64,000 bases of DNA, from contig NZ_CP070615.1 in NCBI RefSeq assembly GCF_017068395.1, forward strand, positions 124,001 to 188,000. Reading direction: 5' to 3'. Shown in pieces: positions 4,675-56,621 of this stretch. How positions within the stretch are numbered: the stretch's first letter is position 1; every line of letters starts with the position of its first letter. The position numbers and the translations under genes were made by a program. This DNA is from Rhodococcus pseudokoreensis. GTDB lineage: Bacteria > Actinomycetota > Actinomycetes > Mycobacteriales > Mycobacteriaceae. The notes under the pieces are model-generated. The model had not been told where the DNA came from. It did not search any database and worked only from the letters and a program-made list of their open reading frames with translations.

Positions 4675-4691
4675 AACTACCCTATGTAGTA
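4675..4691. promoter_or_regulatory. BlaI-type operator O1 (ctaA)
   Basis: This is the weakest member of the series: 9 of 14 fixed positions of TACTATG-N3-CATAGTA. It can also be read as ACTAC-N5-GTAGT. TAGTAT at 4687-4692 could be a -10 element. Seven bases then separate it from the ATG at 4700, so the ctaA transcript may be leaderless. Confidence 0.6.
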
Positions 4692-4699
4692 TTTCGGGC

Positions 4700-5707
4700 A
4701 TGTCCGGTATCCCGCCCCGTTCTCGGATGTGTACGCCGTTTCAGGCTTTGGCACTTCGCTTCTCGCTCTCACCCAGGGCGTTGCGGTGGGCGACGTCGAG
4801 CGCGCTGGCGATGAGCACGCTGATCGTTCTCGGGGGAGCGGTCGTTCGGGTGACAGGCTCCGGGTTGGGGTGTCCGGAGTGGCCGGCGTGCACGACCGAG
4901 TCGGTGGCGCCGACGGCGGAGACGGGTCTGCACGGGACGATCGAGTTCGTCAATCGGTTGTTGACGTGGGTACTTTCCGCATCGGTCGGATGGGTCATCC
5001 TCTCGGCGCGTCTGCAGGAGGCTCCTCAACGTGCGGTCCTGCGCTCGGCGTGGTTGCAGTTCTGGATCGTGGTTCTCAATGCCGTGCTCGGTGGCGTCAC
5101 CGTGTGGATGAATCTCAATCCCTACATCGTGGCGGCGCACTTCCTCGCGGCGCTGCTTCTGCTGACCGCGGCGACAGTGACCTGGGAGTGGGTGCGCGCC
5201 GGCGAGGATGGAGAACCGGTGCCGCCGAGAGCGTGCACGTTGGGCCGGTGGTTGATGCTCGTCAGTGCGGTCGTGGTCGTGCTTGGGACGCTGGTAACCG
5301 GATCGGGGCCGCATGCCGGCGATTCGAGCGAAGTTCCCCGGATGCCGCTGAACTGGACGGGTGTCACCGTGGTCCACGGTCTCGCTGCAGCGCTCCTCCT
5401 GGTCTTGAGCCTGCTGCTCTTCCGAACGCTGCAGGGCGGTGGTGCCAGAACCGCGCGGAGGCGAGTGGGGTTCTTCGTGGCCGCTCTGCTGACGCAGGTC
5501 GCGTTCGGCATCGTTCAGAGTGTGACCGGTCTTCCGGCAGGCCTGGTCATCGTGCATGTATTCGGGGCGGCGTTGATGTGGGTCGGGGCGGTGCGCGTCG
5601 TGCTCGCCGTCGCGGTACCGCCTCGCGGCGCCGCCGGTGCTGTAGGGGGCCGCCCAATCCTCGATGCCGGCCTGGGTAGCGCGGCGGGAAGCATCGCAGA
5701 GAAGTAA
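4700..5707 (+). CDS. ctaA: Heme A synthase, COX15/CtaA family
   Basis: This membrane enzyme oxidises the C8 methyl of heme O to the formyl group of heme A, the cofactor of aa3-type oxidases. The protein has 335 residues and eight predicted helices. Family marks are GGAVVRVTGSGLGCPEWPAC, with the paired Cys at residues 58 and 64, then HGTIEFVNR with His78. In the second half come TGSGPHAGD, VVHGLAA and VIVHVFGAA, which supply the other heme His ligands. There is no Shine-Dalgarno sequence at this ATG, and operator O1 ends 8 bases before it, which points to a leaderless message. The gene is monocistronic here. It belongs functionally with the two ctaD genes further along. Confidence 0.92.
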   Translation: MSGIPPRSRMCTPFQALALRFSLSPRALRWATSSALAMSTLIVLGGAVVRVTGSGLGCPEWPACTTESVAPTAETGLHGTIEFVNRLLTWVLSASVGWVILSARLQEAPQRAVLRSAWLQFWIVVLNAVLGGVTVWMNLNPYIVAAHFLAALLLLTAATVTWEWVRAGEDGEPVPPRACTLGRWLMLVSAVVVVLGTLVTGSGPHAGDSSEVPRMPLNWTGVTVVHGLAAALLLVLSLLLFRTLQGGGARTARRRVGFFVAALLTQVAFGIVQSVTGLPAGLVIVHVFGAALMWVGAVRVVLAVAVPPRGAAGAVGGRPILDAGLGSAAGSIAEK

Positions 5708-5804
5708 CTACTCGGGACCGTCGAGCCGCGGCACCGGTCCCGGCAGCACCATGTACCAGGAGATGGCGGCCGCGCCTGACCGGGCTCGCGGCGATACGGA
5801 CGCT

Positions 5805-7028
5805 TCAGCGCAGGGCACTGCCGGCCTGCCAGGCATCCCATGGCACGCTCCAGTCGCCGTTCTGCCACAGCTGAAGTGGTTCACCTCCGGTATTGCGGAC
5901 CTCGACCACGTCTCCGGGCAGGGAGAAGTCGTAGAACCATTGCGCATTGACGCGGCTGAGATTCAGGCATCCATGCGAGACGTTGGTGTTCCCCTGGGCC
6001 CAGACGGTGTCCTCGAGTTCGTGCAGATAGATCCCGTCGGTACTGATGCGAGTGGCGTAGTTGATGGATTCTTTGTAGCCGAGCCGGGAATTGACCGGCA
6101 ATCCGTAAGTCGAGGAATCCATCACCACCGGGTTGGCCTTGTCGAGGACCGTGTAGATGCCCGGCTGAGTCCAAAACGACAGAGTCTGACCGTTGATCAC
6201 TTCGGTACCACCCATTCCCATCGACGTCGGCATGGTGCGGACGACCTCGCCGTTGTTGGTGACGGTGACCTGTTTGGTGGTGTCGTCGGCGACGGAGATG
6301 TGGGCGTCCCCGATGGTGAACGAGGTGCTCGCGTCTTCCTGCCCGAACAATCCCTCCCCGAGGGGCACGCCATAGACATTCGCGCGGGCGGTGACCCGGG
6401 TCCCGGGCGCGTAGTAGTTCTGCGGGCGCCAGTGCACATTCTGATCGTCGGCCCAGTACCACGAACCGTCGACCTTCGGTGAGGTCTCCACGCTCAACGC
6501 CCTCTCCGCGGCGGCACGATCGGTGATCGGTTCATCGAAGTGGGTGACGGCGACGATGCCGACCCCGAATGTGCCACCGTCGGTGAGGAGATTGCCGCCC
6601 GAGGTGACGAACGATGGTTGGGTCAGATTGTCGGGCTGCACAGTCGAAAAGGTGCTGGTCCGTTCGCTGCGTTTACCGTCGGTGTTCGTCGCACTGATCA
6701 CGAGCGTGTAGGTCTTGCCATAACCCAGCGGCCCAACCGGTTTCCACACGAGGCGGTCGGGAGTGAAGATTCCGTCGACGACCTTGCCCTCGTTGTTGGT
6801 CATCGTGACCGATTCGAGTGCCCCGTCGCTCGTTTGTACCGACACTGGAGCCACCGGGTTGACCCCGCTCGCGCCGTCAACAGTCGTCACGGTGATAGCG
6901 GGCCCGGCCGTCGGCCCCGCGCTTCCGTCGGCGGTGGACGGCTCTGATCCGGCGCATCCCGCTAAGACCGTGATGAACAGCGCGAGGGCAAGGAGTGGGG
7001 CGAGTTTGCGGAAGCGGTGACACTGCAT
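5805..7028 (-). CDS. L,D-transpeptidase lipoprotein (LdtMt2-like)
   Basis: This enzyme makes 3-3 cross-links in peptidoglycan outside the membrane. The ATG at 7028 follows GGAGGA at ideal spacing. The frame is open further upstream to 7223, but that extension lacks a ribosome site. The order is: lipoprotein signal with VLAGC lipobox (about residue 25), two immunoglobulin-like domains (residues 55-250), and a YkuD catalytic domain with the SHGCLNLS motif holding the catalytic Cys, followed by a C-terminal Trp-rich tail. Length (407 residues) and order match mycobacterial LdtMt2. Operator O2 is 162 bases upstream and could serve this gene and the divergent antitoxin/M23 unit. Confidence 0.93.
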   Translation of the reverse strand: MQCHRFRKLAPLLALALFITVLAGCAGSEPSTADGSAGPTAGPAITVTTVDGASGVNPVAPVSVQTSDGALESVTMTNNEGKVVDGIFTPDRLVWKPVGPLGYGKTYTLVISATNTDGKRSERTSTFSTVQPDNLTQPSFVTSGGNLLTDGGTFGVGIVAVTHFDEPITDRAAAERALSVETSPKVDGSWYWADDQNVHWRPQNYYAPGTRVTARANVYGVPLGEGLFGQEDASTSFTIGDAHISVADDTTKQVTVTNNGEVVRTMPTSMGMGGTEVINGQTLSFWTQPGIYTVLDKANPVVMDSSTYGLPVNSRLGYKESINYATRISTDGIYLHELEDTVWAQGNTNVSHGCLNLSRVNAQWFYDFSLPGDVVEVRNTGGEPLQLWQNGDWSVPWDAWQAGSALR

Positions 7029-7189
7029 GGGTCCTCCATACCAATTGATGTGGGGCGGCAGCTCGAACGCGCGGCGCGACCACCACTCATCCAACCAGGC
7101 CGATGAACTCGCCGGATCCCGCGAGTCGCCCGTGCGCGACCTCTCACGCAGGGCTGAGCGCGCGGAGCGGGTACCGGTCGCCTTAGAAA

Positions 7190-7206
7190 AACTATGTAGA
7201 ATAGTA
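7190..7206. promoter_or_regulatory. BlaI-type operator O2 (ldt / antitoxin-M23)
   Basis: The site matches 12 of 14 fixed positions (AACTATG-TAG-AATAGTA). It lies between the divergent ldt gene and the 7403-9083 unit, so it may act on both. Confidence 0.75.
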
Positions 7207-7402
7207 GTTAAGGTGCGGTTCACTCTGGTGCCGCACCAGTACTCCTTCGACCGGAAAGGCGTTGCTGCTCAACGGATATCGACCCCAGTGCTCGCCCTGC
7301 ACCCACCATTGACCGACGGTGACGCGGGGCGATGGTGTCGTGTCTTCGAAGGAGGGCCGCCGGACGGGCGCGCAAAACCATCTACACGAGAAGGAGTACG
7401 CG

Positions 7403-7591: not shown

Positions 7592-7796
7592 CCCCCGACC
7601 TGCGCTCCGCGCGGAGGGGGCGTCGCTCGCTGCCTGGTGCCAATGGGAATCCTGAGAATATCGGGATTCCTGTTACCGGAGAGGAGAAAGTCCACTACCG
7701 TTACGGCGTGTCGACTTGACTAACCCCTAATTCTCGCCTTCGTTGCCGGTCGCGTCAGCGGCCCGACGGCGGACGCGGGGCCCGCAGGAAGGCGAG

Positions 7797-9083
7797 ATGA
7801 TGCGCAGTACGAACGATCATGGCGTGATCCGCCGGTTTGCGCCGATGCTCGTCGGCGCAACCTCCGTATTCGCGGCGGTCCAGTTCGGGGCACCACCACC
7901 GTCTGCCGCGGACCCACAGGAGACGTCCCCGACGCCCTCGGCGTTGGCCACAGCGGTCGCGGACGCACTGACCGAGGTAGCCGATCAAGCCGATCCCGCA
8001 GTCACCGTGGTGGATCCCAGCTTGTGGCAGACGGTCGCGAACATCACGATGACAAGCCTCACGGACGTCTCGCAGAGCGGCGGCGCCGACGCGACCACGC
8101 AGTCTCGGCTCGCCGAGTGCCTGACGGCATGGTCCGCTCAGGGACGACCCGACGGGAACGACGCCCTCGGCGCATGCGCCGGTGAACTGATCAGCGTGAA
8201 CATCAATCTCGCGCAACGCCTTCTCACCGCACTCGCGGCCGAACAGGACGCTCCGTCGCCGGAGGCTGAACAGGACGCTCTGTCGCCGGAGGCTGAACAG
8301 GACGCTCTGTCGCCGGAGGCCGAACAGGACGCTCTGTCGCCGGAGGCCGACCCCGCATTGGAGGCAAGCACACCCGAGGCAAGCACACCCGAGGCGGCCG
8401 ACCCGACCGGTGAGGCCGGGGATTCCGCCGCAGCCACCGGGGAAAGCTCTGGAGAAACCACCGAAACCACAACACCCTCAGAGTCAGGTACGGGGCCGGA
8501 GTCCGACGCATCGGAACCGGAGATCATGCCGGAGGGCGCGAGCCGATCCGCCCAGGAGTCCGATCCACCCGTGCCGGGAACACCACCGGACGGCGCGACC
8601 CAGGACGACCCGGAGTCCGGCGCCAGCGGGACAACCACGACGGACGTACCAACTACACCTGCCCCCCGTACGTGGAACCGTCCGAGCGCACGGGGGTTCG
8701 TGGCCCCCACATCGGGCGATGTCACCTCGACGCTGGGGGATGGGCGTCAGCACGGGGGGATTGACATCGCGAACACGCTCGGCGCCCCGATCGTCGCCGT
8801 CGCCGATGGGGAGGTCATCAGCGCCGGGCCGGCACAGGGGTTCGGGTTGTGGGTGCGCATCAAGCACGACGACGGTACGGTGACCACCTACGGGCACAAC
8901 AACGACAATTTGGTATCCGTCGGGCAACGGGTCAAAGCGGGTCAGCGGATCGCGACGATCGGAAACCGAGGGAACTCGACCGGTCCGCACCTGCACTTCG
9001 AGGTCGAGTCACCCACCGGCGATGAGATCGATCCCCTGCAGTGGCTGACAGCGCGGGGAGCTGCGATTGTCGGTCTCGACTGA
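7797..9083 (+). CDS. Secreted M23 (LytM) peptidase with Glu-rich repeat linker
   Basis: This zinc endopeptidase cuts peptidoglycan stem or bridge peptides. AGGAAGG precedes two tandem ATG codons (7797, 7800). An N-terminal signal/anchor (about residues 10-40) is followed by a helical region, then a low-complexity acidic linker with four copies of EQDALSPEA and further Thr/Pro/Glu-rich sequence to about residue 300. The C-terminal LytM domain has HGGIDIANTLG (first His and Asp zinc ligands) and GPHLHFEVES (His-x-His). All catalytic residues are present. It is the longest of three M23 peptidases here and differs from the near-identical pair at 16883 and 23798 in its long linker. The linker probably spans the wall. 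Confidence 0.9.
   Translation: MMRSTNDHGVIRRFAPMLVGATSVFAAVQFGAPPPSAADPQETSPTPSALATAVADALTEVADQADPAVTVVDPSLWQTVANITMTSLTDVSQSGGADATTQSRLAECLTAWSAQGRPDGNDALGACAGELISVNINLAQRLLTALAAEQDAPSPEAEQDALSPEAEQDALSPEAEQDALSPEADPALEASTPEASTPEAADPTGEAGDSAAATGESSGETTETTTPSESGTGPESDASEPEIMPEGASRSAQESDPPVPGTPPDGATQDDPESGASGTTTTDVPTTPAPRTWNRPSARGFVAPTSGDVTSTLGDGRQHGGIDIANTLGAPIVAVADGEVISAGPAQGFGLWVRIKHDDGTVTTYGHNNDNLVSVGQRVKAGQRIATIGNRGNSTGPHLHFEVESPTGDEIDPLQWLTARGAAIVGLD
8241..8348 (+). repeat. Four tandem 27-bp repeats inside the M23 gene
   Basis: Four consecutive 27-bp units (starts 8241, 8268, 8295, 8322) encode EQDA(P/L)SPEA. The units differ by one or two bases. A shorter imperfect repeat (ASTPE twice) follows at once. 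Copy number is likely to vary between strains by slippage. Confidence 0.95.
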
Positions 9084-9208: not shown

Positions 9209-9225
9209 AACTATGCGGAGTAGTA
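9209..9225. promoter_or_regulatory. BlaI-type operator O3
   Basis: The site matches 11 of 14 fixed positions (AACTATG-CGG-AGTAGTA). It ends 19 bases before the GTG start of the membrane protein at 9245. Confidence 0.65.
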
Positions 9226-9244: not shown

Positions 9245-9775
9245 GTGAACTCACGGTCGGATGTCGTCGCGCGGATGCGCGGCGCCCTCGTGGGTTCAGT
9301 CTCCGGTGCGGTCAGCATCGCCGCGCACGGCATCGGCGGCGGAGGAATGCCACCGAGCGAGAGCGCGGTCGTACTGCTCATCGCGGTCTGCGCCGCGGTC
9401 GGAGCGATGGTGTCCGCGATCCGGGTGAGCAGTCACCGCACGGCCTTCGTCGTGGCGGTGCTCGCGGCGGGACAGGTTGCCGGGCATGCATCGTTGGCGG
9501 TGGCTACCCATCACTCCCATGGCCTCCAACTGTCCGCATCGATGATCGCCGCTCACGTCGTCGCCACCATCGTTGCGGCAGGGTTGATCCGTTCGGCCGA
9601 ACGAGCGTGCCTGATCGCCCTGGCCGCGTTGTCGCGGATCGTCTTGATCGTGTTGGCGCCGCGTCCGGTCGATACCGGCACGTGGACGGCGACCCCGGTC
9701 TACCGCGCAAAACTCGCCCTGTGGCTGCTCGTCAACGCCACCGCTGGAACCCGCGCCCCACCCGCCCTAATCTAA
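9245..9775 (+). CDS. Small actinobacterial integral membrane protein, unknown function
   Basis: The 176-residue protein has four to five hydrophobic helices. I cannot name a family with confidence. It looks like the small His-bearing membrane proteins found next to copper-chaperone and Dyp-peroxidase genes in actinobacteria: AAHGIGGGGMPPSES near the start, and THHSHGLQLSASMIAAHV in the middle with four His residues close to the membrane. The GTG at 9245 is the only start close behind operator O3, but the ribosome site is weak. Downstream on the same strand come the PepSY protein, PCu(A)C chaperone and Dyp peroxidase. A strong hairpin and a perfect palindrome lie between, so co-transcription with them is uncertain. 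Confidence 0.7.
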   Translation: MNSRSDVVARMRGALVGSVSGAVSIAAHGIGGGGMPPSESAVVLLIAVCAAVGAMVSAIRVSSHRTAFVVAVLAAGQVAGHASLAVATHHSHGLQLSASMIAAHVVATIVAAGLIRSAERACLIALAALSRIVLIVLAPRPVDTGTWTATPVYRAKLALWLLVNATAGTRAPPALI

Positions 9776-11696: not shown

Positions 11697-12248
11697 ATGA
11701 CCAGATCGTCCCTTGGTTACACCCTGACTGCCGGCGCAGTATGCGTCGGCCTACTGGTGGCCGGATGCAGCTCGTCCCCACAAACGCCGTCGGCGACGCA
11801 AGCCGACTCGGTCACGGTGACCGATCAGTGGGTCAAGGCCGCCGATAGCGGCATGACCTCGGCCTTCGCGGAACTGGCCAACACCGGCCGCGGCGACGTG
11901 CGCATCGTGTCGGCGAGCAGCCCGGCCTCGGCCCGGATGGAATTGCACGAGATGGCCCCGGGTGAAGGGGGGTCGATGGCCATGCGGCAGAAGCCGGACG
12001 GGGTCGTCGTTCCGGCGAACGGCACGCACAGCATTTCACCCGGCGGCGACCATCTGATGCTGATGGATATCACCGCGCCGTTGACCCCCGGCACCATCGC
12101 CACTTTCACCCTCACCTTCGAAGATGGGTCGACCACGAGTTTCGATGCCGCTGTCCGGGACTTCTCCGGCAACAAGGAGGAGTACCTGCCGACTGAGGAC
12201 GAACCCGCCGAGGGCGCGTCCGCGACCACCTCCAATCACGGTGGCTGA
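11697..12248 (+). CDS. PCu(A)C-type copper chaperone lipoprotein
   Basis: This extracytoplasmic Cu(I) carrier delivers copper towards the CuA/CuB sites of cytochrome oxidase. It has 183 residues and a lipobox at LLVAGC. The copper site follows the H(M)X10MX21HXM scheme: MELHEMAPGEGGSMAMR supplies the first His and Met ligands, and GGDHLMLMDI the last His and Met. GGAGAAG lies upstream of the ATG. The stop codon overlaps the GTG start of the Dyp peroxidase by 8 bases, so the two are translationally coupled. The C-terminal tail is acidic and ends in NHGG. Confidence 0.92.
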   Translation: MTRSSLGYTLTAGAVCVGLLVAGCSSSPQTPSATQADSVTVTDQWVKAADSGMTSAFAELANTGRGDVRIVSASSPASARMELHEMAPGEGGSMAMRQKPDGVVVPANGTHSISPGGDHLMLMDITAPLTPGTIATFTLTFEDGSTTSFDAAVRDFSGNKEEYLPTEDEPAEGASATTSNHGG

Positions 12249-13639: not shown

Positions 13640-14569
13640 CTACCAGGGCAGCTCCTCGCAGCGTCCCGGTCCCTGTGCGGGTTCGACCTGCAAGGTGGCG
13701 TGTGGGAGGTCGAACTTCTCCGCCAGCAATGTCTGTGCCGAGGCAAGGACCGACGCGGGGTCGGCGTCGGATTCGGTGGTCAAATGTGCCGAGGCCACCT
13801 CCATGCCGCTGGTGAGTGTCCACACGTGCAGATCGTGAGCGTCCTGGACCCCGGGCAGTGCGTTGAGCTCGCGGGTGATCTCGGGGATGTCGAGCCCCGA
13901 CGGGGCATGCTGGAGCAGGATCCGCAGCGCGTGTCGCCCGAGGTTGTATGCGCGGGGGAGTACGAACAGTCCGATGGCGACACCGATGACCGGGTCGGCG
14001 TAGCGCCACCCGAACAGCAAGGTCACTAGGCCACTGATCAGCACGCCGACCGAACCGAGCATGTCTGCCATGACCTCGAGGTAGGCGCCGCGCACGTTCA
14101 GGCTTTCCTTCGCCCCCGACCGCAGGAGCAGGAAGGCGGCCACGTTCATCACCAAGCCCACAATGGCCACGATGGTGACCGGCAGGCCCGGCACCTCCGG
14201 TGGATCGGACAGCCGACCGGCTGCCTCGTACAGCACCCACCCGGCCACGCCGAACAGCAGGATCGCGTTGAACAGGGCCGCAAAGACTTCCGCCCGGTAC
14301 AGGCCGAACGTGCGATCCGGCCGGGCCGCTGCGCGTTGTGCGAGCAGGATCGCGGTCAGTGCCATCAGAATGCCGAAGACGTCGGTGAATACGTGTGCGG
14401 AGTCGGACAGCAGCGCCAGTGACGACGTCGACAGGCCGACTACGACTTGTGTGACGAAGGTGACCAGTCCGAGCCCTACCGCGACCCACAGTCGCCACAC
14501 ATGTTTGGCCGATGCGCTCGTTGCGTCGGCGGGCGAGATGCCGTGCCCGTGCCCGTGGCCATGCCCCAT
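13640..14569 (-). CDS. CDF-family divalent cation exporter
   Basis: This proton-coupled exporter of Zn(II)/Co(II)-type ions in the inner membrane has 309 residues and six helices. The N-terminus is His-rich (MGHGHGHGHG). Helix II has SDSAHVFTDV with the usual H-x3-D metal pair. Helix V reads AYLEVMADMLGS, where the usual HxxxD pair is ExxxD. This changes one of the four transport-site ligands and may change metal choice. The C-terminal cytoplasmic domain contains HDLHVWTLTSGM. A near-palindrome shared with the MmpL promoter lies 44 bases upstream, and operator O4 lies 115 bases upstream between this gene and copD-ctaG. Confidence 0.92.
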   Translation of the reverse strand: MGHGHGHGHGISPADATSASAKHVWRLWVAVGLGLVTFVTQVVVGLSTSSLALLSDSAHVFTDVFGILMALTAILLAQRAAARPDRTFGLYRAEVFAALFNAILLFGVAGWVLYEAAGRLSDPPEVPGLPVTIVAIVGLVMNVAAFLLLRSGAKESLNVRGAYLEVMADMLGSVGVLISGLVTLLFGWRYADPVIGVAIGLFVLPRAYNLGRHALRILLQHAPSGLDIPEITRELNALPGVQDAHDLHVWTLTSGMEVASAHLTTESDADPASVLASAQTLLAEKFDLPHATLQVEPAQGPGRCEELPW

Positions 14570-14683: not shown

Positions 14684-14700
14684 TACTATCCTCCATAGTA
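14684..14700. promoter_or_regulatory. BlaI-type operator O4 (CDF / copD-ctaG)
   Basis: The site matches 13 of 14 fixed positions (TACTATC-CTC-CATAGTA). It lies between the divergent CDF and CopD-CtaG genes, 77 bases before the latter. Confidence 0.8.
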
Positions 14701-16823: not shown

Positions 16824-16841
16824 GTACTGTGGCCCGTGTCC

Positions 16842-44756: not shown

Positions 44757-44852
44757 AGTTCGTATTGTGGCGGGCGGTTCAACGAAACCCTCACGGCCTG
44801 CATGGATGCCCTTTCCACGCGACCTGATCGTCCGGGCCCCGCCAACACTAAC

Positions 44853-44869
44853 TACTATCGGACATAGTA
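44853..44869. promoter_or_regulatory. BlaI-type operator O15 (ccsA)
   Basis: The site matches 13 of 14 fixed positions. It is the centre of a 33-bp inverted repeat with 14-base perfect arms (ACACTAACTACTAT and its complement) at 44845-44877. Confidence 0.85.
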
Positions 44870-45043
44870 GTTAGTGTGTGCCGCGCTCACTTACCTACGG
44901 AGCACACTGATCTGACCGAACGACGGATCGGTTGCGCGGGCCGCCGAGGTGGGCAACAACGCCCACTGCGGGTCCGCCGCATACCAGAAAGATTTGTAAG
45001 TTGTGCAATTTCGCCGAAGCCTGCGGCACGTATTGAAGGGACC

Positions 45044-45073
45044 ACGAAACGACGTACGACGAAACGACGTACG
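45044..45073 (+). repeat. 15-bp tandem repeat, two copies
   Basis: ACGAAACGACGTACG occurs twice without gap in the ccsA leader, 72 bases before the preferred start. Confidence 0.9.
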
Positions 45074-45145
45074 AGTAGTAGAACTCGCTGGACGGGTGCG
45101 GCCGCATCTGATCCGAGAATCCGGATGGCTCAGGAGAGAACCGTC

Positions 45146-46132: not shown

Positions 46133-46150
46133 CCGTTCGCTATCTCTGCC

Positions 46151-46242
46151 GGAGCCGTCCGCGGCGGAGAAGCGGCTGCCGTGGCATGGGCAGCCGATTG
46201 TGCCGTTGCGCACTCGCTCACGATGCAGCCCTGGTGCGTGCA
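46151..46242 (-). pseudogene. Decayed fragment of the Rieske gene
   Basis: On the minus strand the fragment reads CTHQGCIVS and, in a shifted frame, GCPCHGSRFS. Compared with 31336-31428 it differs at about 13 of 92 positions and has lost one base between the two cluster motifs. Upstream lies operator O16, nearly the same as the Rieske operator O10, so a whole operator-gene unit was copied. Confidence 0.8.
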
Positions 46243-46369
46243 CCGGTCCCTACGCAGTCCGGTCTTCTTGCATTTCTCGTTGCGGTGTTTCAGCTGGTCG
46301 GGCTGCGGGGTCAGTGCACCTGAAGGTGTTGCGGGCGATCGGGAAGCCGCTGTTCCGGGGGAGGTTCGG

Positions 46370-46495: not shown

Positions 46496-46512
46496 TACTA
46501 TGATGCATAGTA
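46496..46512. promoter_or_regulatory. BlaI-type operator O16 (small peptide)
   Basis: This is a perfect 14 of 14 match (TACTATG-ATG-CATAGTA). It has the same spacer as O10. Confidence 0.87.
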
Positions 46513-47558: not shown

Positions 47559-47575
47559 TACTATGCAGCTTAGTA
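47559..47575. promoter_or_regulatory. BlaI-type operator O17 (ctaD2 / PH-like)
   Basis: The site matches 13 of 14 fixed positions (TACTATG-CAG-CTTAGTA). It lies 93 bases before the ctaD2 start. Confidence 0.8.
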
Positions 47576-47668
47576 GTAAGGGTGAACTCCACTTGCACGG
47601 GGCGGTAGGGGAGTAACGGCATTCGACATGTGCCTGTGACGGCGTTGCAGGAGCGTGGAGGAGGAGCA

Positions 47669-49474
47669 GTGGCGACACTAGTACCGGGTGAGCAGACCAC
47701 CGAGATCGTTGCCGCCCGCCCGTACCCGCCGCGTCGGGGACTCAAAGGCTCGTTCATCTACAAAATGGTCACGACCACCGACCCCAAGATGCTCGGGATC
47801 ATGTACCTGACGACCTCGTTCGTGTTCTTCCTCGTCGGCGGCCTGATGGCCATGCTGATCCGCAGCGAACTCGCGGTGCCCGGTATGCAGTTCCTGTCGA
47901 ACGAGCAGTACAACCAGCTGTTCACCATGCACGGCACGATCATGCTGCTGCTGTACGCGACGCCGATCGTGTTCGGGTTCGCCAACTACATCCTGCCGCT
48001 GCAGATCGGTGCCCCCGACGTGGCGTTCCCCCGCCTCAACGCGTTCAGCTACTGGCTGTATCTGTTCGGGGCGATCATCGCGACCGCGGGGTTCATCACC
48101 CCGGGCGGTGCCGCGGACTTCGGCTGGACCGCGTACACCCCACTCTCCAGCGCCCTGCATTCGCCGGGCATGGGTGCGGACCTGTGGATCACGGGCCTGG
48201 CACTGTCCGGCCTCGGCACCATCCTCGGCGGGGTCAACATGATCACCACCGTGATCTGCCTGCGCGCCCCGGGCATGACGATGTTTCGGATGCCGATCTT
48301 CACGTGGAACATCTTCATCACCAGCATCCTGATTCTGCTGGCGTTCCCGCTGCTGACCGCGGCGCTGATGGGGCTGCTCGCCGACCGGCAGCTCGGCGCC
48401 CACATCTTCGACCCGGCCACCGGCGGTGTCCTTTTGTGGCAGCACCTGTTCTGGTTCTTCGGTCACCCCGAGGTGTACATCATCGCGCTGCCGTTCTTCG
48501 GCATCGTCTCGGAGATCTTCCCGGTCTTCTCCCGTAAGCCGGTGTTCGGTTACAGCGGCCTGATCTATGCGACGCTGGCGATCGCGGCCCTGTCGATCGC
48601 GGTGTGGGCGCACCACATGTACGCCACCGGCGCGGTGCTGCTGCCGTACTTCTCGTTCATGACGTTCCTGATCGCCGTCCCGACGGGGGTGAAGATCTTC
48701 AACTGGATCGGCACCATGTGGAAGGGGCATCTGACGTTCGAGTCGCCGATGCTGTTCTCGATCGGCTTCCTGATCACGTTCCTCTTCGGCGGTCTGTCCG
48801 GTGTCATCCTCGCGAGCCCGCCGCTGGACTGGCAGGTCACCGATTCCTACTTCGTGGTCGCGCACTTCCACTACGTGGTCTTCGGCACCGTCGTGTTCGC
48901 CACCTACGCCGGCATCTATTTCTGGTTCCCGAAGATGACCGGCCGGATGATGGACGAGCGCCTGGGCAAGTGGCACTTCTGGACCACGTTCATCGGCTTC
49001 CACGGCACGTTCCTGGTCCAGCACTGGCTCGGCGCCGAGGGTATGCCGCGCCGCTACGCGGACTATCTGCCGTCGGACGGCTTCACGGTCCTGAACTCGG
49101 TGTCCACGATCTTCGCGTTCGTCCTGGGCGCGTCGACGCTGCCGTTCGTCTGGAACGTCTTCAAGAGCTACCGGTACGGCGAGGTGGTCACCGTCGATGA
49201 CCCGTGGGGTTTCGGCAACTCGCTCGAGTGGGCGACGAGCTGCCCGCCGCCGCGGCACAACTTCACCGAGCTGCCGCGCATCCGCTCCGAGCGTCCCGCG
49301 TTCGAGCTGCACTACCCGCACATGGTCGAGCGGATGAAGGCCGAGGCGCACGTCGGACCGGGCCACGGGGGCAGGCAGGCCAGCGCCGTGCTCGAGGAGG
49401 AGAGGCACGGGCCGCTGACCGTCGGCGACGAAGGCGACCCCGGAACAGACCGTGCCGCCGACGAGGACACCTAG
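47669..49474 (+). CDS. ctaD: Cytochrome c oxidase subunit I, copy 2
   Basis: This second aa3 oxidase subunit I has 601 residues, nearly identical to copy 1 across the 12 helices. GGAGGAGGAG precedes the GTG at 47669. All redox ligands are present ([27 protein letters not shown]). Differences cluster in the first 25 residues, the loop after GWTAY ([13 protein letters not shown] against [13 protein letters not shown]) and the acidic C-terminal tail. It is transcribed alone. Having two regulated copies of only this subunit suggests exchange of subunit I in one oxidase under different conditions. Confidence 0.96.
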
Positions 49475-49546: not shown

Positions 49547-50290
49547 TCAGTTCATGGGAAGTGGTTGCGCACCTTTGGTTTCGAGTAGCTGACGAATCGC
49601 GGTGGACTCGGCCTCCTGAGTGTTGACGATCTGCCGTGCCAGTGCGGCAACGGCGGGGACGGAGGCGTTGTCGGCGGCGTACTGCGCCATCGGGATTCCG
49701 CCTTGGTGGTGCCGCAAGAGCAGTTGCAGGTAGCGCACGTCGAACGCCGGACCGGTCATCTTGCGTAGCTCGTCGAGTTCGGTCGTCGTTGCCATTCCCG
49801 GCATCGGTTGTCGTGGACCGCTGCCTGTGGTGGACATGTCACCTTCCATGCCGGGCATCGAGTGTTGCATCGATCCGGTTGCGCTGTCGGTGGGCATCCA
49901 CTGCATGTACGGACCGGACCCCAGTGGGGGGCGGTCCCACAAGTTCAACCAGCCCTGCATGGTGCCGACCTGACTTTGCTGGGTGGTGACGACGTCGTAC
50001 GCGAGGGTGCGGACGGCGGGATCGGCGGCGTTGGCCAGTGCCATCGCCGACATTTCCACCGCTTGACTGTGATGGACCGACATATCCTGCGCGAACCCGA
50101 CGTCGACGGAATCGGCGGACGGTGGCGGCGGGTTGTCGCCGTCGAGCCACCCCTTGATCCAGAACCCGGCGAGGATTCCGGCCAGCAGTGCGATGACGAC
50201 GATCAATCCGGTCGTCACTGCTCGGTACCGTCGTCGGGGGTCGTCGTGCCCGGGTTCGGTGGAAGCCTGAACGGGATTCGGCTCAGCCAT
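49547..50290 (-). CDS. DUF305 Met/His-rich copper-responsive protein
   Basis: This 247-residue protein has one N-terminal helix (GLIVVIALLAGILAGFWI) and a helical ferritin-like DUF305 domain. Motifs are GFAQDMSVHHSQAVEMSAMAL and LLLRHHQGGIPMAQYAADNA, with a Met-rich loop between (MQHSMPGMEGDMS, MPGMATT). DUF305 proteins are widely associated with copper genes, and the Met/His clusters would bind Cu(I). The start ATG at 50290 lies inside the last codons of the DUF3105 gene, so the two are coupled. Confidence 0.92.
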   Translation of the reverse strand: MAEPNPVQASTEPGHDDPRRRYRAVTTGLIVVIALLAGILAGFWIKGWLDGDNPPPPSADSVDVGFAQDMSVHHSQAVEMSAMALANAADPAVRTLAYDVVTTQQSQVGTMQGWLNLWDRPPLGSGPYMQWMPTDSATGSMQHSMPGMEGDMSTTGSGPRQPMPGMATTTELDELRKMTGPAFDVRYLQLLLRHHQGGIPMAQYAADNASVPAVAALARQIVNTQEAESTAIRQLLETKGAQPLPMN

Positions 50291-51098
50291 TGCCGCCCCC
50301 GGTGGGCATGCCCGGCGCCGCCGGTACCGGGGCGCCGCCGCCACCCGGCTGGGCCGGGTCGGTCTGCTCGTCGGTCATCGGGGCCGCATCCGGACCCGGC
50401 GGTGAGGAGTCGAACGGCGGCGGGTCCGCCGGGTCGAAACCTCCGGGCACCGTCGAACAACTCGCCCCCGCCTCCGGATACGTATTCGGGTTCTGGCTCA
50501 ACGCAGAAACGAACTGGGGGATCCGCTCGTCCGTGGCGCCGTCGAGTTTGAGCTGACGACCCCACGACTGCAGCGACACAGCGGAGTCGAGGCCCGGGTA
50601 GGGCGACATCAGGGTGTACGGTTCGCCGTCGACCTTCGATGCCAGCGTAGCGATGTCGTCCGAGCTCAGCCTGTCCGGGTTGTAGGCAACCCAGACGGCG
50701 CCGTGTTCGAGGGAATGTACGGCGTTTTCGGTGCGGATCGGTTCGGGATAGACCACCCCGGTGCAGGTCGCCCAGTACTGATCGTGCGCGCCGCCGAACG
50801 GCGGATTCTGGTCGTAGGCAACCCGCTGAGGTGCTTGGATATGGTTGCCGGCCGGGTACTCGACCTTGACTACCCCGTCGATACCCGTCGAAGGGTCCGG
50901 GTTGTCCGCGCTCGGCGCGTACCGCTGCGCCTCCGCCCTCTCGAGAGCCCGGGGCACCATGTTGTAGGCGATGACACCGATCAACCCCACAATGACCACT
51001 ACCGCGCCGATCAACAGCCAGGGGATGCGGAGACCGCCCCCCGGAACACCGCCGGCGGTGGAGCGGGACTTGGCGCCGTTGCCCCGGTTTTTCGTCAT
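50283..51098 (-). CDS. DUF3105 membrane-anchored protein
   Basis: This 271-residue protein has one N-terminal helix (IPWLLIGAVVVIVGLIGVIAYNM), then the DUF3105 domain: PPFGGAHDQYWATCTGVVYPEPIRTENAVHSLEHGAVWVAYNP, with conserved His and Cys. A Pro/Gly-rich tail ends MPTGGGNG. DUF3105 is regularly found with DUF305 in actinobacteria; its role is unknown, though a copper or redox function is often assumed. O18 lies 45 bases upstream. Confidence 0.9.
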   Translation of the reverse strand: MTKNRGNGAKSRSTAGGVPGGGLRIPWLLIGAVVVIVGLIGVIAYNMVPRALERAEAQRYAPSADNPDPSTGIDGVVKVEYPAGNHIQAPQRVAYDQNPPFGGAHDQYWATCTGVVYPEPIRTENAVHSLEHGAVWVAYNPDRLSSDDIATLASKVDGEPYTLMSPYPGLDSAVSLQSWGRQLKLDGATDERIPQFVSALSQNPNTYPEAGASCSTVPGGFDPADPPPFDSSPPGPDAAPMTDEQTDPAQPGGGGAPVPAAPGMPTGGGNG

Positions 51099-51142
51099 CT
51101 GTCAGATACCGTCCTTCTTGCCTGCCCCGAACACCCCTCAAT

Positions 51143-51159
51143 TACTATGCATCATAGTA
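51143..51159. promoter_or_regulatory. BlaI-type operator O18 (DUF3105-DUF305)
   Basis: This is a perfect 14 of 14 match (TACTATG-CAT-CATAGTA). It contains the stop codon of lnt (51152-51154): the last two Leu codons and the TGA of lnt form one half-site. Confidence 0.88.
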
Positions 51160-52804
51160 GTTGCTGTCGAGCGGTGACCGAGGTGACCGGCCCACCGCCG
51201 GGCCTTCCTCTCCCGGACCTACGCAGCCCCGTGACGAAGACGGGGACGAGCAGAAAGGACAGGGCAACTTCGGGTACGGAGCCGAGACGGGTAGCCCATG
51301 TGAGATCCGTACCGAGCGCGATCTCGCCCACGAGTGCATCGGCGGTGAAGAGTGCGGTTTGCTGCTGCACCGTCCCGTCGGGGGCAATGATGGCACTGAC
51401 ACCGCTGGTGGCGGCGATGAGCACACTCCGCCCATGTTCGACGGCACGAATACGTGACATCGCCAGCTGCTGGTAGGTCATATCGGTGCGCCCAAAGGTG
51501 GCGTTATTGGTCGGCACCGTAATGACCTGGGCGCCTGCCCGTACCGACTCGGTCACCAGGTCGTCGAAGGCGACCTCGTAGCAGGTGGCGACGGCCAGAC
51601 GAACGCCGTTGAGATCGACGACGCCATCGCCGGTCCCGGCCACGAAGTTCCCCGCTTGCTTCGCGTACGGGGACAGTGCGGTCATCACCGGGCGCAGCGG
51701 AAGGTATTCGCCGAACGGAACGAGCTGACGCTTGATGTGCTGCTCACCCGGGCCGCGGGCCGGATCCCACACCATCACGCTGTTGACGGTGGTGCCGCCC
51801 TCTCCCACGAGCACGGCGCCAACGAGGATGGGAGTCCCCATCGATCGGGCGGCGGCGTCGAGGCGGGCGGCGGCGTCGCGATTGCGGAGGGGATCGATGT
51901 CCGAGGCGTTCTCCGGCCAGATGACCAGACTGGGTCTTGGTGCACGCCCGGCGGCGACATCCGCGGCGAGCTGTTCGGTGCGGGCGAGATGATTGTCGAG
52001 CACCGCCCGGCGCTGTGCATTGAAGTCGAGGCCCAGGCGCGGCACATTTCCTTGCACAACCGCAGCAGTGGCGGTGGTTCCGGCATCGGTGCTGCTGCTC
52101 CCGGCCGAGAGGACAAGGGCGACGAGAAGTGGGACGCCGACCGGAATGGTGCCGGCGACAACGGCGGAGCGCCAACGGTGCGAACGAAGCCCGACCACGC
52201 ACCCGGCGAGTCCCGCACCCACCAAGGCGGCGGCGAACGACAGGCCAGGAGCCCCAACGATCCCCGCCAGCGGTAGCAGGGGACCGTCGGCTTGCCCGAA
52301 CGCGATTCGGCCCCAAGGGAAACCGCCGAACGGAACTCGGGACCGGATAGCTTCCGTGACGACCCACGCACCGGACACCCACATCGCCGCCCCCGGCAAC
52401 CGGCCGACCGCAGCGGTGATCAGTCCGAACAGCGCGACCGCGACCGCTTCGATCGCGGCGAGAATCAGCCAGGGGACCGCGCCCACGTACACCCCCACCC
52501 AGGGCAGCAGCGGCACGAAGAAGGCAAGCCCGGCGAGGTAGCCGTACCCGAATCCGGCGCGAAGCGACCGACCTCGAAGAACCAGAGTCAGCACCGCAAT
52601 ACCTACCGGCGCCAGGAACCACATCGTGAGTGGGGGAAAGCTGAGGAAGAGCAATGCGCCGGACCCGGTGGCGGCAGCACATCGGAACAGGGCGCCGGCC
52701 ATCCGGTGCCCTGTGGTGAGGCGCCGGAGGCGGATGACCTCGCGCCCGGGTGGGCGGCGCAGGTCACCTCCCGGTATCCCGGCAACATCCTGGTCAGTGG
52801 TCAC
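51152..52804 (-). CDS. lnt: Apolipoprotein N-acyltransferase
   Basis: This enzyme adds the third acyl chain to lipoproteins. It has 550 residues. Helices span the first 240 residues, and the nitrilase domain follows with the catalytic triad in WPENASDIDP (Glu), EQHIKRQLVPFGEYLPLR (Lys) and VATCYEVAFDDL (Cys). GRTDMTYQQLAMSRIRAVEHGR is also typical. It is the last gene of the resA2-resA1-ccdA-resB-lnt operon, 49 bases after resB, while lspA is under another operator of the same regulon. Its end overlaps operator O18. Placing Lnt with cytochrome c maturation is unusual. Confidence 0.93.
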   Translation of the reverse strand: MTTDQDVAGIPGGDLRRPPGREVIRLRRLTTGHRMAGALFRCAAATGSGALLFLSFPPLTMWFLAPVGIAVLTLVLRGRSLRAGFGYGYLAGLAFFVPLLPWVGVYVGAVPWLILAAIEAVAVALFGLITAAVGRLPGAAMWVSGAWVVTEAIRSRVPFGGFPWGRIAFGQADGPLLPLAGIVGAPGLSFAAALVGAGLAGCVVGLRSHRWRSAVVAGTIPVGVPLLVALVLSAGSSSTDAGTTATAAVVQGNVPRLGLDFNAQRRAVLDNHLARTEQLAADVAAGRAPRPSLVIWPENASDIDPLRNRDAAARLDAAARSMGTPILVGAVLVGEGGTTVNSVMVWDPARGPGEQHIKRQLVPFGEYLPLRPVMTALSPYAKQAGNFVAGTGDGVVDLNGVRLAVATCYEVAFDDLVTESVRAGAQVITVPTNNATFGRTDMTYQQLAMSRIRAVEHGRSVLIAATSGVSAIIAPDGTVQQQTALFTADALVGEIALGTDLTWATRLGSVPEVALSFLLVPVFVTGLRRSGRGRPGGGPVTSVTARQQLL

Positions 52805-52853: not shown

Positions 52854-54476
52854 TCACGGGGTCGGTCGATCGCGCGAGCCGGTCACCAGACGCGCACTGA
52901 TGGTGGTGAACTCCGCACCCCAGCCGGCGTGATCGGTGCGGGCGAGGCCACCGAGTTCGATGCGGGTCTCGTGTTCCGTTGCGCCGGGGCGCAGCCGCAC
53001 CCAGATTCGGCGGCGCTTGATCAGTAGCGAGATCAGCAATCCGATCATCATCGTGATCGCGAAGACCAGCACCCATTGCTGTGCGGGATCGTGAGAGACC
53101 TGGAGGTTGGCGAACTCCTCGGCGCCGTCGAACCGCACCTGGGTGCCGTCCGGCAAGGCGGTGGATTCCCCGGGCCGGAGGTTGACTCGGTCCTCTTTGA
53201 CGAGTCGACCTTGGTTGATCAACTCGGAGTTGAGGGAAAAGATCGACTGGGGGATCCCCGTGTCGAGCCCGCTGTCGCCTCGGTAGATGTCCACCGCCAC
53301 AGCCGGATCCAGAAGATCGGGAAACACCGAGGTCAAAAGGGTGCCATTGAAATAGGCAGTGGGAGCAAAGAGGCCCTCGATCGCGATCTGATTCTTGCGC
53401 CGCTCCTCCGGGTCGGCATACGTGCCACCGGGAGGGTCGAATCGCAATGCACCGCTGCTGAGGAAGGTGGTGGCGTCATCGGGGCGGAACTGCATCGTCT
53501 CGGTGCGGGTCTGGCCGTCCGGAAAGGTCACCGTGAAGGTCGGGGCGTACCCGTGACCGGTGAGGTAGACCCGGGCGCTACCGACCCGGAGCGGTTCGTT
53601 GACCCGCAACCGGTAGTCCTGCCAGGCGCTCGCACCGATCTGCTCGCCCGTTTGGTACGAGATGTTGGAGGTGAACATCTCCGCTTGACCGTTGTCGAGG
53701 TAGTCCGCGGTGAAGTCGTTGACCTTGACGCAAAACGGTTCGAGTCCTGTTCCATCCGTGGAGTTTCCGGCGCGAAACGAGTCGTATACCGCGGGGGAGG
53801 TGTTGCAGAAGCCGGGCCCACCGTCCGCAATCACGATGACCGAGCCCTCGTATCCGAACAGTCGTCCGAGTGCAACGGCTGCCAGCAAGCCGATGAGCGA
53901 GAAGTGGAAGATCAGGTTTCCGGCTTCCCGAAGATAGCCTTTCTCCGCGGAAATCGACACCGTTGCAGCATTTTCGGGTCGAACGACGACACGCCACCCG
54001 CGCAGAGCGGCGCGCACCTGCCCGGTCGCCTGATCGATCGAGGTGTGCAGTGTTCCGAGGTCGTGGTGCGGTAGCCGGGACAAGTTGCGCGGTGCCCGCA
54101 CGGGTTCGCTGCGCAGCGCCCGGAGGTGGTCCGCGAGCCGCGGCAACAGGCAGCCGATGAGGGAGACGAACAACAGCACGTAGATAGCGGTGAACCAGAA
54201 GCTGGCGAAGACGTCGAAGAGTTCGATCTTGTCCATCACGGGGCCAAGGGTGGGTCGGTCGGCGATGTATTGGTCGACCTTCTGCGCGTTGAGGCTTCGT
54301 TGAGGCAGCATCGCACCCGGCAGAGCGGCCAGTGCCAGGAGGAACAGCAGCACGAGGGCGGTGCTCATCGAGGTCAGCCGGCGCCAGAGGTTGCGCCCGG
54401 TCTCCAGGCTGCGCCGGATCGGCGACGGTCGGCCTTCTCGGTCCGGCGTATCGACCGTCGTGTGAAGGCCGGTCAT
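52854..54476 (-). CDS. resB: Cytochrome c biogenesis protein ResB (Ccs1)
   Basis: This is the System II partner of CcsA and holds apocytochrome c for heme attachment. It has 540 residues. Three helices near the N-terminus ([24 protein letters not shown] is family-typical; then [21 protein letters not shown]) and one around residue 195 precede a large extracytoplasmic domain. The last helix is [27 protein letters not shown]. The ATG overlaps the ccdA stop (ATATGA). A frame extends far upstream through ccdA, but this is a shadow. All expected regions are present. Confidence 0.93.
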
Positions 54477-55279
54477 ATCGGCAACACGACGGCGGTGACG
54501 AATTCGTTGCGCAGCCAGCCGACGAACAGCTCCCACGCCCCGCTGAGCAACGCCAGCCCTACCGCGACGAGCAGGACGCCGCCGACGATCTGGATCGTGC
54601 GGGCATGGCGGCGTAGCCAACCGATTCCCCGCAGCGCCTTCGCGGACCCGAATGCGAGCACCACGAACGGCAATCCGAGGCCGAGGCAGTACGCGATGAT
54701 CAATCCCACCCCGCGTGCGGCGGTGGCACCCTCGGTTCCGGCGGCGACCGAGAGCACCCCGGCCAGGGTAGGACCGAGGCACGGTGTCCAGCCCAACGCG
54801 AACACCCCGCCCAGCAACGGTGCGCCGGCCAACGAGGAGATGCGGCGCGGACTGAATCGGGTGTCCTTCTGGAGGGTGGGAATGAGCCCGAGGAACGCCA
54901 GTCCCATGACGATGGTGATCACTCCGCCGCCGCGTTGGAGCAGTTCCTGGTTGATCCGAAGGGCCCCGATCACACCGAACACCGACGCGGTCGCCAGGAC
55001 GAACACCACGGTGAATCCGGCCACGAACAGTGCTGCGGCCCCGGCTATGCGCCACCGGTCCGCACTTGGGGTGCGGGCGTCGCCTGCGGTGACCGCGGGG
55101 GTCTCGGCGCCGGAAATCCCGGCGAGGTAGGACAGATATCCCGGTACCAGCGGTACGACACACGGAGAGGCGAAGGACACCAGACCTGCCAACACGCAGG
55201 CGGCGAACGCGAGCAGTAGCGGTCCGGTCGCGGCCGCGGTCTGGAAGCTCGCCCCGATTCCCTCCGCCAGGATTGTCAT
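54473..55279 (-). CDS. ccdA: CcdA-type thiol electron carrier across the membrane
   Basis: This six-helix protein moves electrons from cytoplasmic thioredoxin to ResA. It has 268 residues. The active Cys lie in [22 protein letters not shown] (helix 1) and [15 protein letters not shown] (helix 4), the standard SPC and TPC motifs. The ATG overlaps the resA1 stop and its own stop overlaps resB, so the three are coupled. Confidence 0.94.
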
Positions 55280-55911
55280 TGCTCGGCCGCCACTCGTTCG
55301 ATCACCGGCTGCAGGTCTTCGGCCAACAATGCCCGCAAGAACACCGCGGCCACACGATGGTTCCGGTCGAGTACCAAGGTGGAGGGAATGACGCTGGTGG
55401 GATAACTCCCGCCCAAGGCTATGAGGGTGCGCATGGGTGGGTCGTAGATCGAGGGGTATGTCACTTGATTGTCGATGACGAAGTCCTGGGCCTTGTCCCG
55501 CTGAGGGTCGCGAACATTGATTCCGAGGAACTGAACCCCGAGGTCTTTGGTTGCGGCGTAAGCGCGTTCGAGATCGTCGGCCTCGGACCGGCACGGCGCG
55601 CACCACTGACCCCAGAGGTTGATCACCACTACCTGTCCGGCGTAATCCGCCAGCGACACCGACTTGTCATCGGTCATCAGATCGGGGCCGGAGAGGGGAC
55701 CGATCTTCCCCCGGCCCTCCGGTGGGTCGTAGAGGATGTCGGTTTGCCCGCCCGGGGAAACGAAATCGAAGGTTCCGCCCTGGGCCACCGCGTCGGAGCC
55801 GGACGCGCAGCCGGTCAACGCGATCACCACCGCCGCGCACAGTGCGAGCACTGCGACCGTTCGCGACCGCCGATTGGACGACTCGCCCACTCGCGCGCGC
55901 TGCCGCATCAT
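55276..55911 (-). CDS. resA: TlpA/ResA-like thioredoxin lipoprotein 1
   Basis: This extracytoplasmic reductase of apocytochrome c thiols has 211 residues, with a lipobox at VIALTGC. The active site is [17 protein letters not shown] (CAPC). The central ResA-type insert is present, and the cis-Pro is in [11 protein letters not shown]. It overlaps both neighbours by 4 bases. Confidence 0.92.
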
Positions 55912-56540
55912 CGGATCACCTCACTTACCGTGGAACGAATCTCGGCCGGGTCACCGAAGACCGCTGGTGTGGTGATCCGTTCGACCGAACCATCTTGCTT
56001 GACAACGAAATTCAACGGCAGCACGGGAGGCGCGGACAATGCCTTCTGCGCTGCACCGGAATCTTGGAATGACGGGTAATGGGCACCCACCTCGGCCAGA
56101 AACCCCAGAGCAGCGGCGGGGTCATCTTGCACATTGATCCCCACGACAGGAATGGATCCGGGCTCGTTTGCATACGCGTCGAGCACGGGAATCTCCTCCC
56201 TGCACGGCCCGCACCAGGACGCCCATAAATTGACCAGGGTTGGTTCACCACTCACCGCTGCCCCGAGGTCGACCGTGTCCGTGGAACCCAGACACCGCAC
56301 CATCACGCCAAGTAATTGCGCATCGGTCGGTGGTGAGGTTGCAGGTTCCGGACACGGCCGCAGGCGCGCCCCCTCGGCAGCCTCAACCAACTCGGGCCCG
56401 TCGATCGCAGAGTCGGAGGCCCGCGCCCCCTCTCTCCTCGCGGACGGCGTGTCAGCCGACTCCGAACGCGGCCAGATCGCCACGATCAACACCACGATCA
56501 CGGCCAGGAAAAAAATCAGCCATCGACTCCCAGACCGCAC
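55908..56540 (-). CDS. TlpA/ResA-like thioredoxin protein 2
   Basis: This 210-residue protein has an uncleaved N-terminal anchor (WLIFFLAVIVVLIVAIW), an acidic linker with a Cys pair (LRPCPEPATSPPTDAQLLGVMVRC) and a thioredoxin domain with LWASWCGPCREEIPVLD (CGPC). The GTG at 56540 follows AAAGGGAA; the longer frame upstream runs through the operator and is not used. Two consecutive ResA-like genes may split reduction of apocytochrome c from reduction of another target, such as a copper site. Confidence 0.92.
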   Translation of the reverse strand: MRSGSRWLIFFLAVIVVLIVAIWPRSESADTPSARREGARASDSAIDGPELVEAAEGARLRPCPEPATSPPTDAQLLGVMVRCLGSTDTVDLGAAVSGEPTLVNLWASWCGPCREEIPVLDAYANEPGSIPVVGINVQDDPAAALGFLAEVGAHYPSFQDSGAAQKALSAPPVLPLNFVVKQDGSVERITTPAVFGDPAEIRSTVSEVIR

Positions 56541-56570
56541 GTGTTGTTTCCCTTTCTTCAATGGTCGGTC

Positions 56571-56621
56571 GCACCACGACCACCAACTACTATTGCGCAT
56601 AGTAGTTGGCGGTCGTGGTGC
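56571..56621. repeat. 51-bp inverted repeat containing operator O19
   Basis: Arms of 23 bases (56571-56593 and 56599-56621) pair with one mismatch around TGCGC. The inner half of each arm is the operator. The outer halves (GCACCACGACC) are GC-rich and not part of any other operator. Confidence 0.92.
56588..56604. promoter_or_regulatory. BlaI-type operator O19 (resA2-resA1-ccdA-resB-lnt)
   Basis: The site matches 13 of 14 fixed positions (TACTATT-GCG-CATAGTA). It lies 48 bases upstream of the resA2 start. Confidence 0.87.

Follow-up and report, generated by a model that had tools for sequence, protein, structure and literature searches.

A plasmid BlaI-type repressor as the probable reader of nineteen palindromes among copper, oxidase and envelope genes of Rhodococcus pseudokoreensis

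What reads a palindrome that recurs nineteen times among copper, oxidase and envelope genes of one replicon? The question is raised by a 64-kb stretch of Rhodococcus pseudokoreensis DNA (the window, meaning the whole stretch analysed; C2:124001-188000 of the 320-kb contig C2, in an assembly of 9.87 Mb and six contigs), where copies of TACTATG-N3-CATAGTA are scattered over a gene island between positions 4675 and 56604. Comparison of sequences within and beyond this genome leads us to conclude that a plasmid repressor-protease pair, consisting of a BlaI-family protein and an M56-type peptidase and akin to a chromosomal regulator, very probably controls the copper, oxidase and envelope-maturation genes of the island.

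The palindromes and the BlaI gene among them

Scanning the window with TACTATG-N3-CATAGTA at up to three mismatches returned 18 matches, six of them exact, as against a mean of 0.22 and a maximum of 2 matches in dinucleotide-shuffled windows (100 shuffles). The site at 4675 exceeds three mismatches and was recovered by a symmetric 21-bp matrix made from the other 18; pattern scan and matrix together returned the 19 copies, six exact, that the first-pass annotation had counted. The 19 sites score 19.0-37.0 bits and the next-best place in the window 4.3 bits; as the matrix was derived from the sites themselves, it is this gap, not the scores, that is meaningful. Exact ACTAT/ATAGT half-site pairs occurred 14 times at a spacing of 5 and never at spacings of 0-4 or 6-11. 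The full consensus, ACTACTATGN3CATAGTAGT, is longer than the one first proposed.

When coding score is used to trim gene starts, 18 of the 19 sites lie entirely outside genes, compared with 20% of the 17-mers of the span; with the longest open reading frames (ORFs), 14 of 19 do so, compared with 11.5% of 17-mers. The earlier statement that all sites lie between genes therefore holds to a degree that depends on the choice of gene starts. Of the five sites that touch longest ORFs, those at 7190, 16807, 40201 and 56588 are in what may be N-terminal extensions; the fifth, at 51143, covers the final 8 bases of lnt and is the site correctly described as overlying a stop codon. An alternative coding test, with trimmed starts, five hand-added stretches and ORF 31194-31853 counted, left 17 of 19 sites outside genes; that ORF is made unlikely as a gene by the Rieske gene on the other strand.

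Genome-wide, 17 of the 18 sites found at up to two mismatches fall in the window, and the remaining one, C2:241673, lies about 54 kb past the window end on the same contig, its 17 bases identical to those of the site at 56588. Three mismatches add nine further places, one of them in the window (total 27, against 45 for the reversed pattern); outside the window this class is mostly background, with exceptions that include the chromosomal cydA and atp sites described below. Far from the window, C2 has a 20-kb stretch two thirds of which align at about 97% identity with Rhodococcus plasmids, including one from R. jostii RHA1, and in which a conjugal transfer gene is annotated; on the strength of this backbone match we take C2 to be a plasmid. 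Elsewhere on C2, the region 228001-248000 (L147) holds matches to LspA, DUF305, TlpA, M56 and a BlaI of 37% identity, together with one island-type operator.

The proposed repressor is encoded at 17880-18275 (+ strand). This 131-aa protein without cysteines matches the Penicillinase_R profile (PF03965) at 92.5 bits, far above the cut-off of 22.6, and its nearest solved structure is 2g9w (E 8e-18), which we take to be Mycobacterium tuberculosis BlaI, followed by MecI and penicillinase repressor chains. Two more Penicillinase_R genes are present in the genome, on the chromosome (C6:204335) and at C2:242764. Overlapping the end of blaI, a gene at 18272-19219 (+) encodes a 315-aa M48/M56-type membrane peptidase with a HERAH motif, hydrophobic stretches and an M48 match above cut-off (29.1 bits), the candidate BlaI-cleaving partner. 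In alignment, an LLHF stretch of BlaI falls opposite the staphylococcal LNF stretch, presumably the cut site there. An M23 peptidase gene (16811-17875, +) stands ahead of blaI, and a dyad-symmetric site, operator 5 (16807-16823), precedes the M23-blaI-M56 unit, an arrangement suggestive of self-control. A blaI remnant with stops (24739-24945) lies behind the third M23 gene of the island, as if an operator-M23-blaI unit had been duplicated, and another blaI fragment is found at C2:209517.

In this family a BlaI dimer occupies a palindrome until an M56 peptidase cleaves it, whereupon the genes are jointly derepressed. By the same scheme the 19 palindromes would be operators of the island BlaI, which, made from the self-controlled operator-M23-blaI-M56 unit, would repress some 18 island promoters; M56, once activated, would cleave it and release all island units together. 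The induced respiratory set would comprise the two CtaD proteins, factors for heme A and copper insertion (CtaA, CtaG, CopC/D, PCu(A)C) and CcsA, ResB, CcdA and TlpA; the envelope set would comprise DsbA, VKOR, LspA, Lnt, the L,D-transpeptidase, the MprF-like protein and the M23 proteins. The island pair would have the chromosomal BlaI/M56 pair as its sister or its ancestor, one base in each half-site of the operator having changed. What we observe are the sites, where they lie, their occurrence together with this BlaI and the sister operators on the chromosome; that BlaI binds, represses and is cleaved, the line of descent and the trigger are what we infer.

Association of the sites with one BlaI clade

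That BlaI is the binder had been a guess from proximity, and it gains support from co-occurrence, conserved placement and a sister operator. At up to one mismatch the motif was found in 8 of 28 genomes of the genus (reversed control, 0 of 28), and those same 8 encode a BlaI with 50% or more identity to the island protein, the other 20 lacking both; in all 8, each contig with a motif place also carries such a BlaI. Picking one given set of 8 from 28 genomes has a probability of 1 in 3.1 million, a figure to be read with the genomes being related rather than independent events and the 50% line having been drawn after the table was seen. Among BlaI loci of about 3.4 kb, all 8 whose BlaI is 67% or more identical to the island protein carry an ACTAT-type site, as do 2 of 3 at 50-53%.

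The same association recurs on other plasmids. A BlaI match was found in 96 plasmid records (54 from Rhodococcus), and in regions taken from 10 of them, sites scoring at least 15 bits with the window matrix number 6, 7, 4, 8 and 6 in five Rhodococcus regions, 5 in Gordonia pKB1 and 3 in Nocardia pNF1. By eye, sites recur before CDF/CopD-CtaG, M23-blaI-M56 and ctaD (the equivalents of operators 4, 5 and 6) in four regions each (L156, L157, L216 and L219), before dsbA/copC (operator 12) in L156, L157 and L216, and before TlpA (operator 19) in L156 and L157; R. oxybenzonivorans pRB29 has one site some 0.7 kb ahead of the gene for a prolipoprotein diacylglyceryl transferase. In this genome the sites are local (17 of 18), and the 52-kb block first described is no isolated oddity: it is a module borne by a plasmid, and many plasmids of actinobacteria carry relatives of it. 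Mycolicibacterium pMYCCH.01 (L220) has three BlaI-M56 pairs annotated in a 22-kb stretch that also holds copper and envelope genes; its variants of the site are all weak, and it might use another operator class.

An exact-motif scan of a species-genome collection gave at least 119 loci; among the matches listed, a BlaI gene lies within 8 kb at 19 of 43 high-GC loci (>58%) versus 1 of 76 others. In 25 genomes, a biased sample selected for holding the exact motif, there are 1-25 places each at up to two mismatches against 0-6 for the reversed control, which equals or exceeds the motif count in four (G011, G013, G016 and G025). A family-wide draw found the motif (up to one mismatch) in 58 of 301 genomes and the reversed control in 3; of 20 loci of up to 3 kb that were inspected, 5 hold BlaI and 14 match some query gene, 3 of the 14 solely through a weak match to atpB; the other 6 match none.

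A closely similar operator marks the chromosomal regulator. Exact matches to the core ACTAY-N5-RTAGT number 21 genome-wide, of which 16 fall in the window, three are chromosomal and the other two are C2:241674 and C3:26610; since the reversed control gives 25, the locations are informative and the count is not. The chromosomal sites lie at C6:204276 (L154), ending 34 bases before the start of chromosomal blaI; at C6:7324118 (L153), between atpB and the gene in the atpI position, which it directly follows; and at C6:2758033 (L152), before cydA. Pfam confirmed for this genome blaI with its M56 neighbour, the ATP synthase A and C chains and cytochrome bd subunit I, and gave no match for the gene in the atpI position. 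The core site at C3:26610 (ACTACCTCAGGTAGT) is on yet another contig, and an LPG_synthase_C (MprF-like) gene at L154:5562-8258 is divergent from chromosomal blaI, the mprF-like gene of the window also standing behind an operator.

This sister operator, ACTAC-N5-GTAGT, differs from the island form, ACTAT-N5-ATAGT, in one base per half-site. TACTAC-N5-GTAGTA has 76 places across all 28 genus genomes, against 5 for the reversed pattern; 28 of the 76, one per genome, lie at blaI (11), cydA (13), atpB (3) or none of these (1). All 14 chromosomal-type BlaI loci have an ACTAC-type site just upstream. In a family-wide draw the pattern occurs in 91 of 121 genomes, and 19 of 30 loci from other genera are at cydA and 2 at blaI. 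A wrong-spacing control, N7 instead of N5, gave 4 sites against 4 for its own control, none on C2. Island and chromosomal BlaI are 42% identical and differ in the expected DNA-reading helix (AYTTVMTVLQRL versus AYTTILTVVTHL), a role that we assume for this helix. Judged from these sequences, the two repressors, paralogs within one cell, appear to act at operators one base per half-site apart. Mycobacterial BlaI is reported to regulate the atp operon (PMC5874750, PMC12565901); here this target seems to be matched for the chromosomal paralog only, through the site before atpB. No link between BlaI and cydA appeared among the papers listed in a literature search.

Could the palindromes belong to another protein, with BlaI merely travelling alongside? 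The window does encode a DtxR-like regulator (36906-37709) and a sensor kinase (gene at 56932), and related plasmids carry ArsR genes. On pRpMTN (L216), however, BlaI is the sole regulator annotated in the segment that spans all four sites, between the CDF gene and the second oxidase-assembly gene; the window proteins matched in the 3.4-kb loci L160-L163 are CDF, M23, BlaI, M56 and DsbA only (genes beyond these matches being left unannotated); and the sister operator adjoins chromosomal blaI in every one of the 14 loci. We consider another binder improbable. A dispersed REP- or MITE-like repeat would account for many near-identical copies within one replicon and for the longer flanks that some sites share by eye (16807/23723 most clearly, also 44741/47559 and 9209/40201), but the centre is variable, the flanks past 21 bp mostly look unrelated by eye, the placement at gene starts is conserved in other plasmids, the spacing is exclusively 5 and the motif tracks one BlaI clade. 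This origin is the least credible of those weighed, and a repeat element or chance was rejected on score gap, spacing and conserved placement.

Several observations nevertheless weigh against BlaI control as proposed. No -10 or -35 element stands out at a fixed distance from the 19 operators, and the M56 match of the peptidase (20.0 bits) is under the Pfam cut-off of 31. The site at C2:241673 adjoins a different BlaI (37% identity); binding by this second C2 BlaI was considered and dropped, since other paralog loci of 35-44% identity are without the site, an ACTAT-type site being present in just 1 of 7. One BlaI at 50% identity (L186) has no site in its 3.4-kb locus, and on plasmids of Mycolicibacterium, Streptomyces and Pseudonocardia, where BlaI identity is 43-48%, there are 2, 1 and 0 sites, all weak. 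The family-wide count of the ACTAC pattern is merely about twice its reversed control (162 versus 77 places), so that support there comes from location at cydA, not from number, and 9 of the 30 other-genus loci are at neither cydA nor blaI. Within the island, the kinase, the SulP-carbonic anhydrase and MMPL have no clear copper link, and a BlaI devoid of cysteines cannot sense copper through a cysteine motif.

Genes behind the operators

Pfam matches of the island units include two ctaD, ctaA, CopC, CtaG, PCu(A)C, LspA, Lnt, M23 and Rieske, and no beta-lactamase was found among the units named here. Operator 1 (4675-4691; AACTACCCTATGTAGTA), the weakest, stands upstream of ctaA (4700-5707, +; COX15-CtaA family); as its half-sites read ACTAC/GTAGT, we would guess that it could respond to chromosomal BlaI instead. 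Operator 2 (7190-7206) separates an L,D-transpeptidase gene (YkuD, SHGC motif; 5805-7223, -) from an M23 peptidase gene (7743-9083, +), and operator 3 (9209-9225) precedes 9245-9775 and a PepSY_TM gene, with a PCu(A)C copper chaperone encoded at 11697-12248 (+). Between a CDF cation efflux gene (13640-14569, -) and a CopD-CtaG fusion (14777-16744, +) lies operator 4 (14684-14700). Beyond the M23-blaI-M56 unit, the perfect operator 6 (19260-19276) is upstream of ctaD1, encoding cytochrome oxidase subunit I (19335-21104, +); CopC is encoded at 22807-23436 (+), and operator 7 (23723-23739) precedes the third M23 gene (23774-24727, +), which the blaI remnant follows.

Operator 8 (27510-27526) lies between an MMPL gene (-) and lspA, for signal peptidase II (27663-28103, +). 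Of the next three operators, 9 (28371-28387, perfect) precedes the SulP transporter-carbonic anhydrase gene (28763-31081, +), 10 (31839-31855, perfect) the Rieske gene (31256-31666, -) and 11 (34355-34371) the protein kinase gene (32766-34232, -). The highest score belongs to the perfect operator 12 (40201-40217), between a minus-strand run for DsbA, VKOR, the DtxR-like protein, a multicopper oxidase and a ZIP-like protein below the Pfam cut-off (34678-40149) and the plus-strand copC2-ctaG2 (40234-41874). Operator 13 (41991-42007) is upstream of the mprF-like gene (LPG_synthase_C; 42093-44546, +), and two sites, operators 14 (44741-44757) and 15 (44853-44869), stand before the ccsA-like gene (Cytochrom_C_asm; 44876-46132, +).

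For the perfect operator 16 (46496-46512) we saw no convincing intact target, merely a 32-codon ORF followed by a Rieske-like remnant, which was read by eye on the minus strand at 46120-46270. Operator 17 (47559-47575) precedes ctaD2 (47630-49474, +). The perfect operator 18 (51143-51159), overlapping the end of the lnt ORF, is upstream of 50215-51141 and a DUF305 gene; the two span 49547-51141 (-), and the neighbour, without a Pfam match, takes the place of DUF3105 genes in other plasmids. Operator 19 (56588-56604) heads a minus-strand run for two TlpA-like thioredoxins, a CcdA-like protein (DsbD_TM below cut-off) and ResB (52854-56690), continuing to the apolipoprotein N-acyltransferase Lnt (51152-52804). 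Some island units duplicate functions found elsewhere in the genome, as judged from the two examined: COX1 has five matches (two in the island, one on C1 and two on C6) and signal peptidase II three (island, C2:235516 and C6).

Trigger, related systems and significance

Which signal would release this set? BlaI is known chiefly as a beta-lactamase switch, and beta-lactam sensing is unlikely here, because in the 315-aa peptidase only M48/M56 stretches, and no penicillin-binding sensor domain, were found (Pfam, E 0.001). CopY-type copper sensing by BlaI itself was rejected, a C-terminal cysteine motif being impossible in a protein with 0 cysteines in 131 aa. We think that the trigger is copper, or a similar thiol-reactive metal, that damages extracytoplasmic respiration and thiol chemistry, because many island units provide envelope functions reported as copper targets. 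Cytochrome c assembly is one such target. In work mostly on Gram-negative bacteria, L,D-transpeptidases and lipoprotein maturation are described as inhibited by copper, which also makes disulfides form wrongly (PMC9302775, PMC6593411); copper impairs lipoprotein acylation as well, and cutE harbours lnt (PMC6538781). The same BlaI regulon might instead answer to low oxygen, an inhibited oxidase or a loss of electron flow, and its copper genes would then be there only to supply the copper that oxidases require. The sister operator at cydA, atpB and blaI agrees with such a respiratory trigger, as do the two ctaD, ctaA, CtaG and cytochrome c maturation genes of the island; the multicopper oxidase, CDF, DUF305 and PCu(A)C genes of the window and the metal-resistance genes near islands on other plasmids suit metal stress better, and the L,D-transpeptidase, LspA and Lnt are non-respiratory. 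We regard it as a serious possibility, with the balance somewhat against it.

The BlaI/M56 pair proposed here can be set beside several known systems. Staphylococcal BlaI/MecI, with BlaR1/MecR1, belong to the same repressor family, bind palindromic sites and have a peptidase partner encoded alongside; the island peptidase differs in having 315 aa and no Pfam match to a penicillin-binding sensor. CopY repressors share the Pfam family of BlaI and have a metal-binding cysteine tail; copper genes stand behind the island sites and plasmid annotations read BlaI/MecI/CopY family, whereas the island BlaI, without cysteines, has no CopY-type tail. M. tuberculosis BlaI (Rv1846c), which presumably adjoins the M56-type peptidase Rv1845c, provides the nearest structure, 2g9w, and its apparent counterpart here is the chromosomal BlaI; the island protein is a separate plasmid paralog with ACTAT-type sites at some 18 copper, oxidase and envelope promoters. 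The Cpx/NlpE system of Escherichia coli responds to copper-damaged lipoprotein maturation (PMC6538781, PMC6593411) and uses unrelated proteins, in contrast to a plasmid repressor-peptidase pair with duplicated target enzymes. Among the papers listed in literature searches there was no comparable BlaI regulon for respiration or copper; rhodococcal plasmids as such are already known to carry heavy-metal resistance (PMC3983516).

Because the island sets envelope and oxidase functions, many of them reported copper targets, beside copper-handling genes, we read it as a target-replacement kit. We suggest, tentatively and as somewhat less than an even prospect, a mobile kit that goes beyond efflux pumps: silent spare copies of envelope enzymes poisoned by copper or another thiol-seeking metal, under one BlaI/M56 switch that was recruited from the respiratory regulator of the cell itself and is kept orthogonal to it by one base pair per half-site. 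If true, this would be plasmid-carried metal resistance by target replacement under one switch, and operators one base per half-site apart would offer a simple test case for the separation of paralogous repressors. The BlaI family here looks like a broad controller of respiration, with a small chromosomal set (blaI, cydA and atp) and a plasmid paralog at about 18 promoters, and the cydA and atp sites are a candidate route by which these actinobacteria may raise a backup oxidase.

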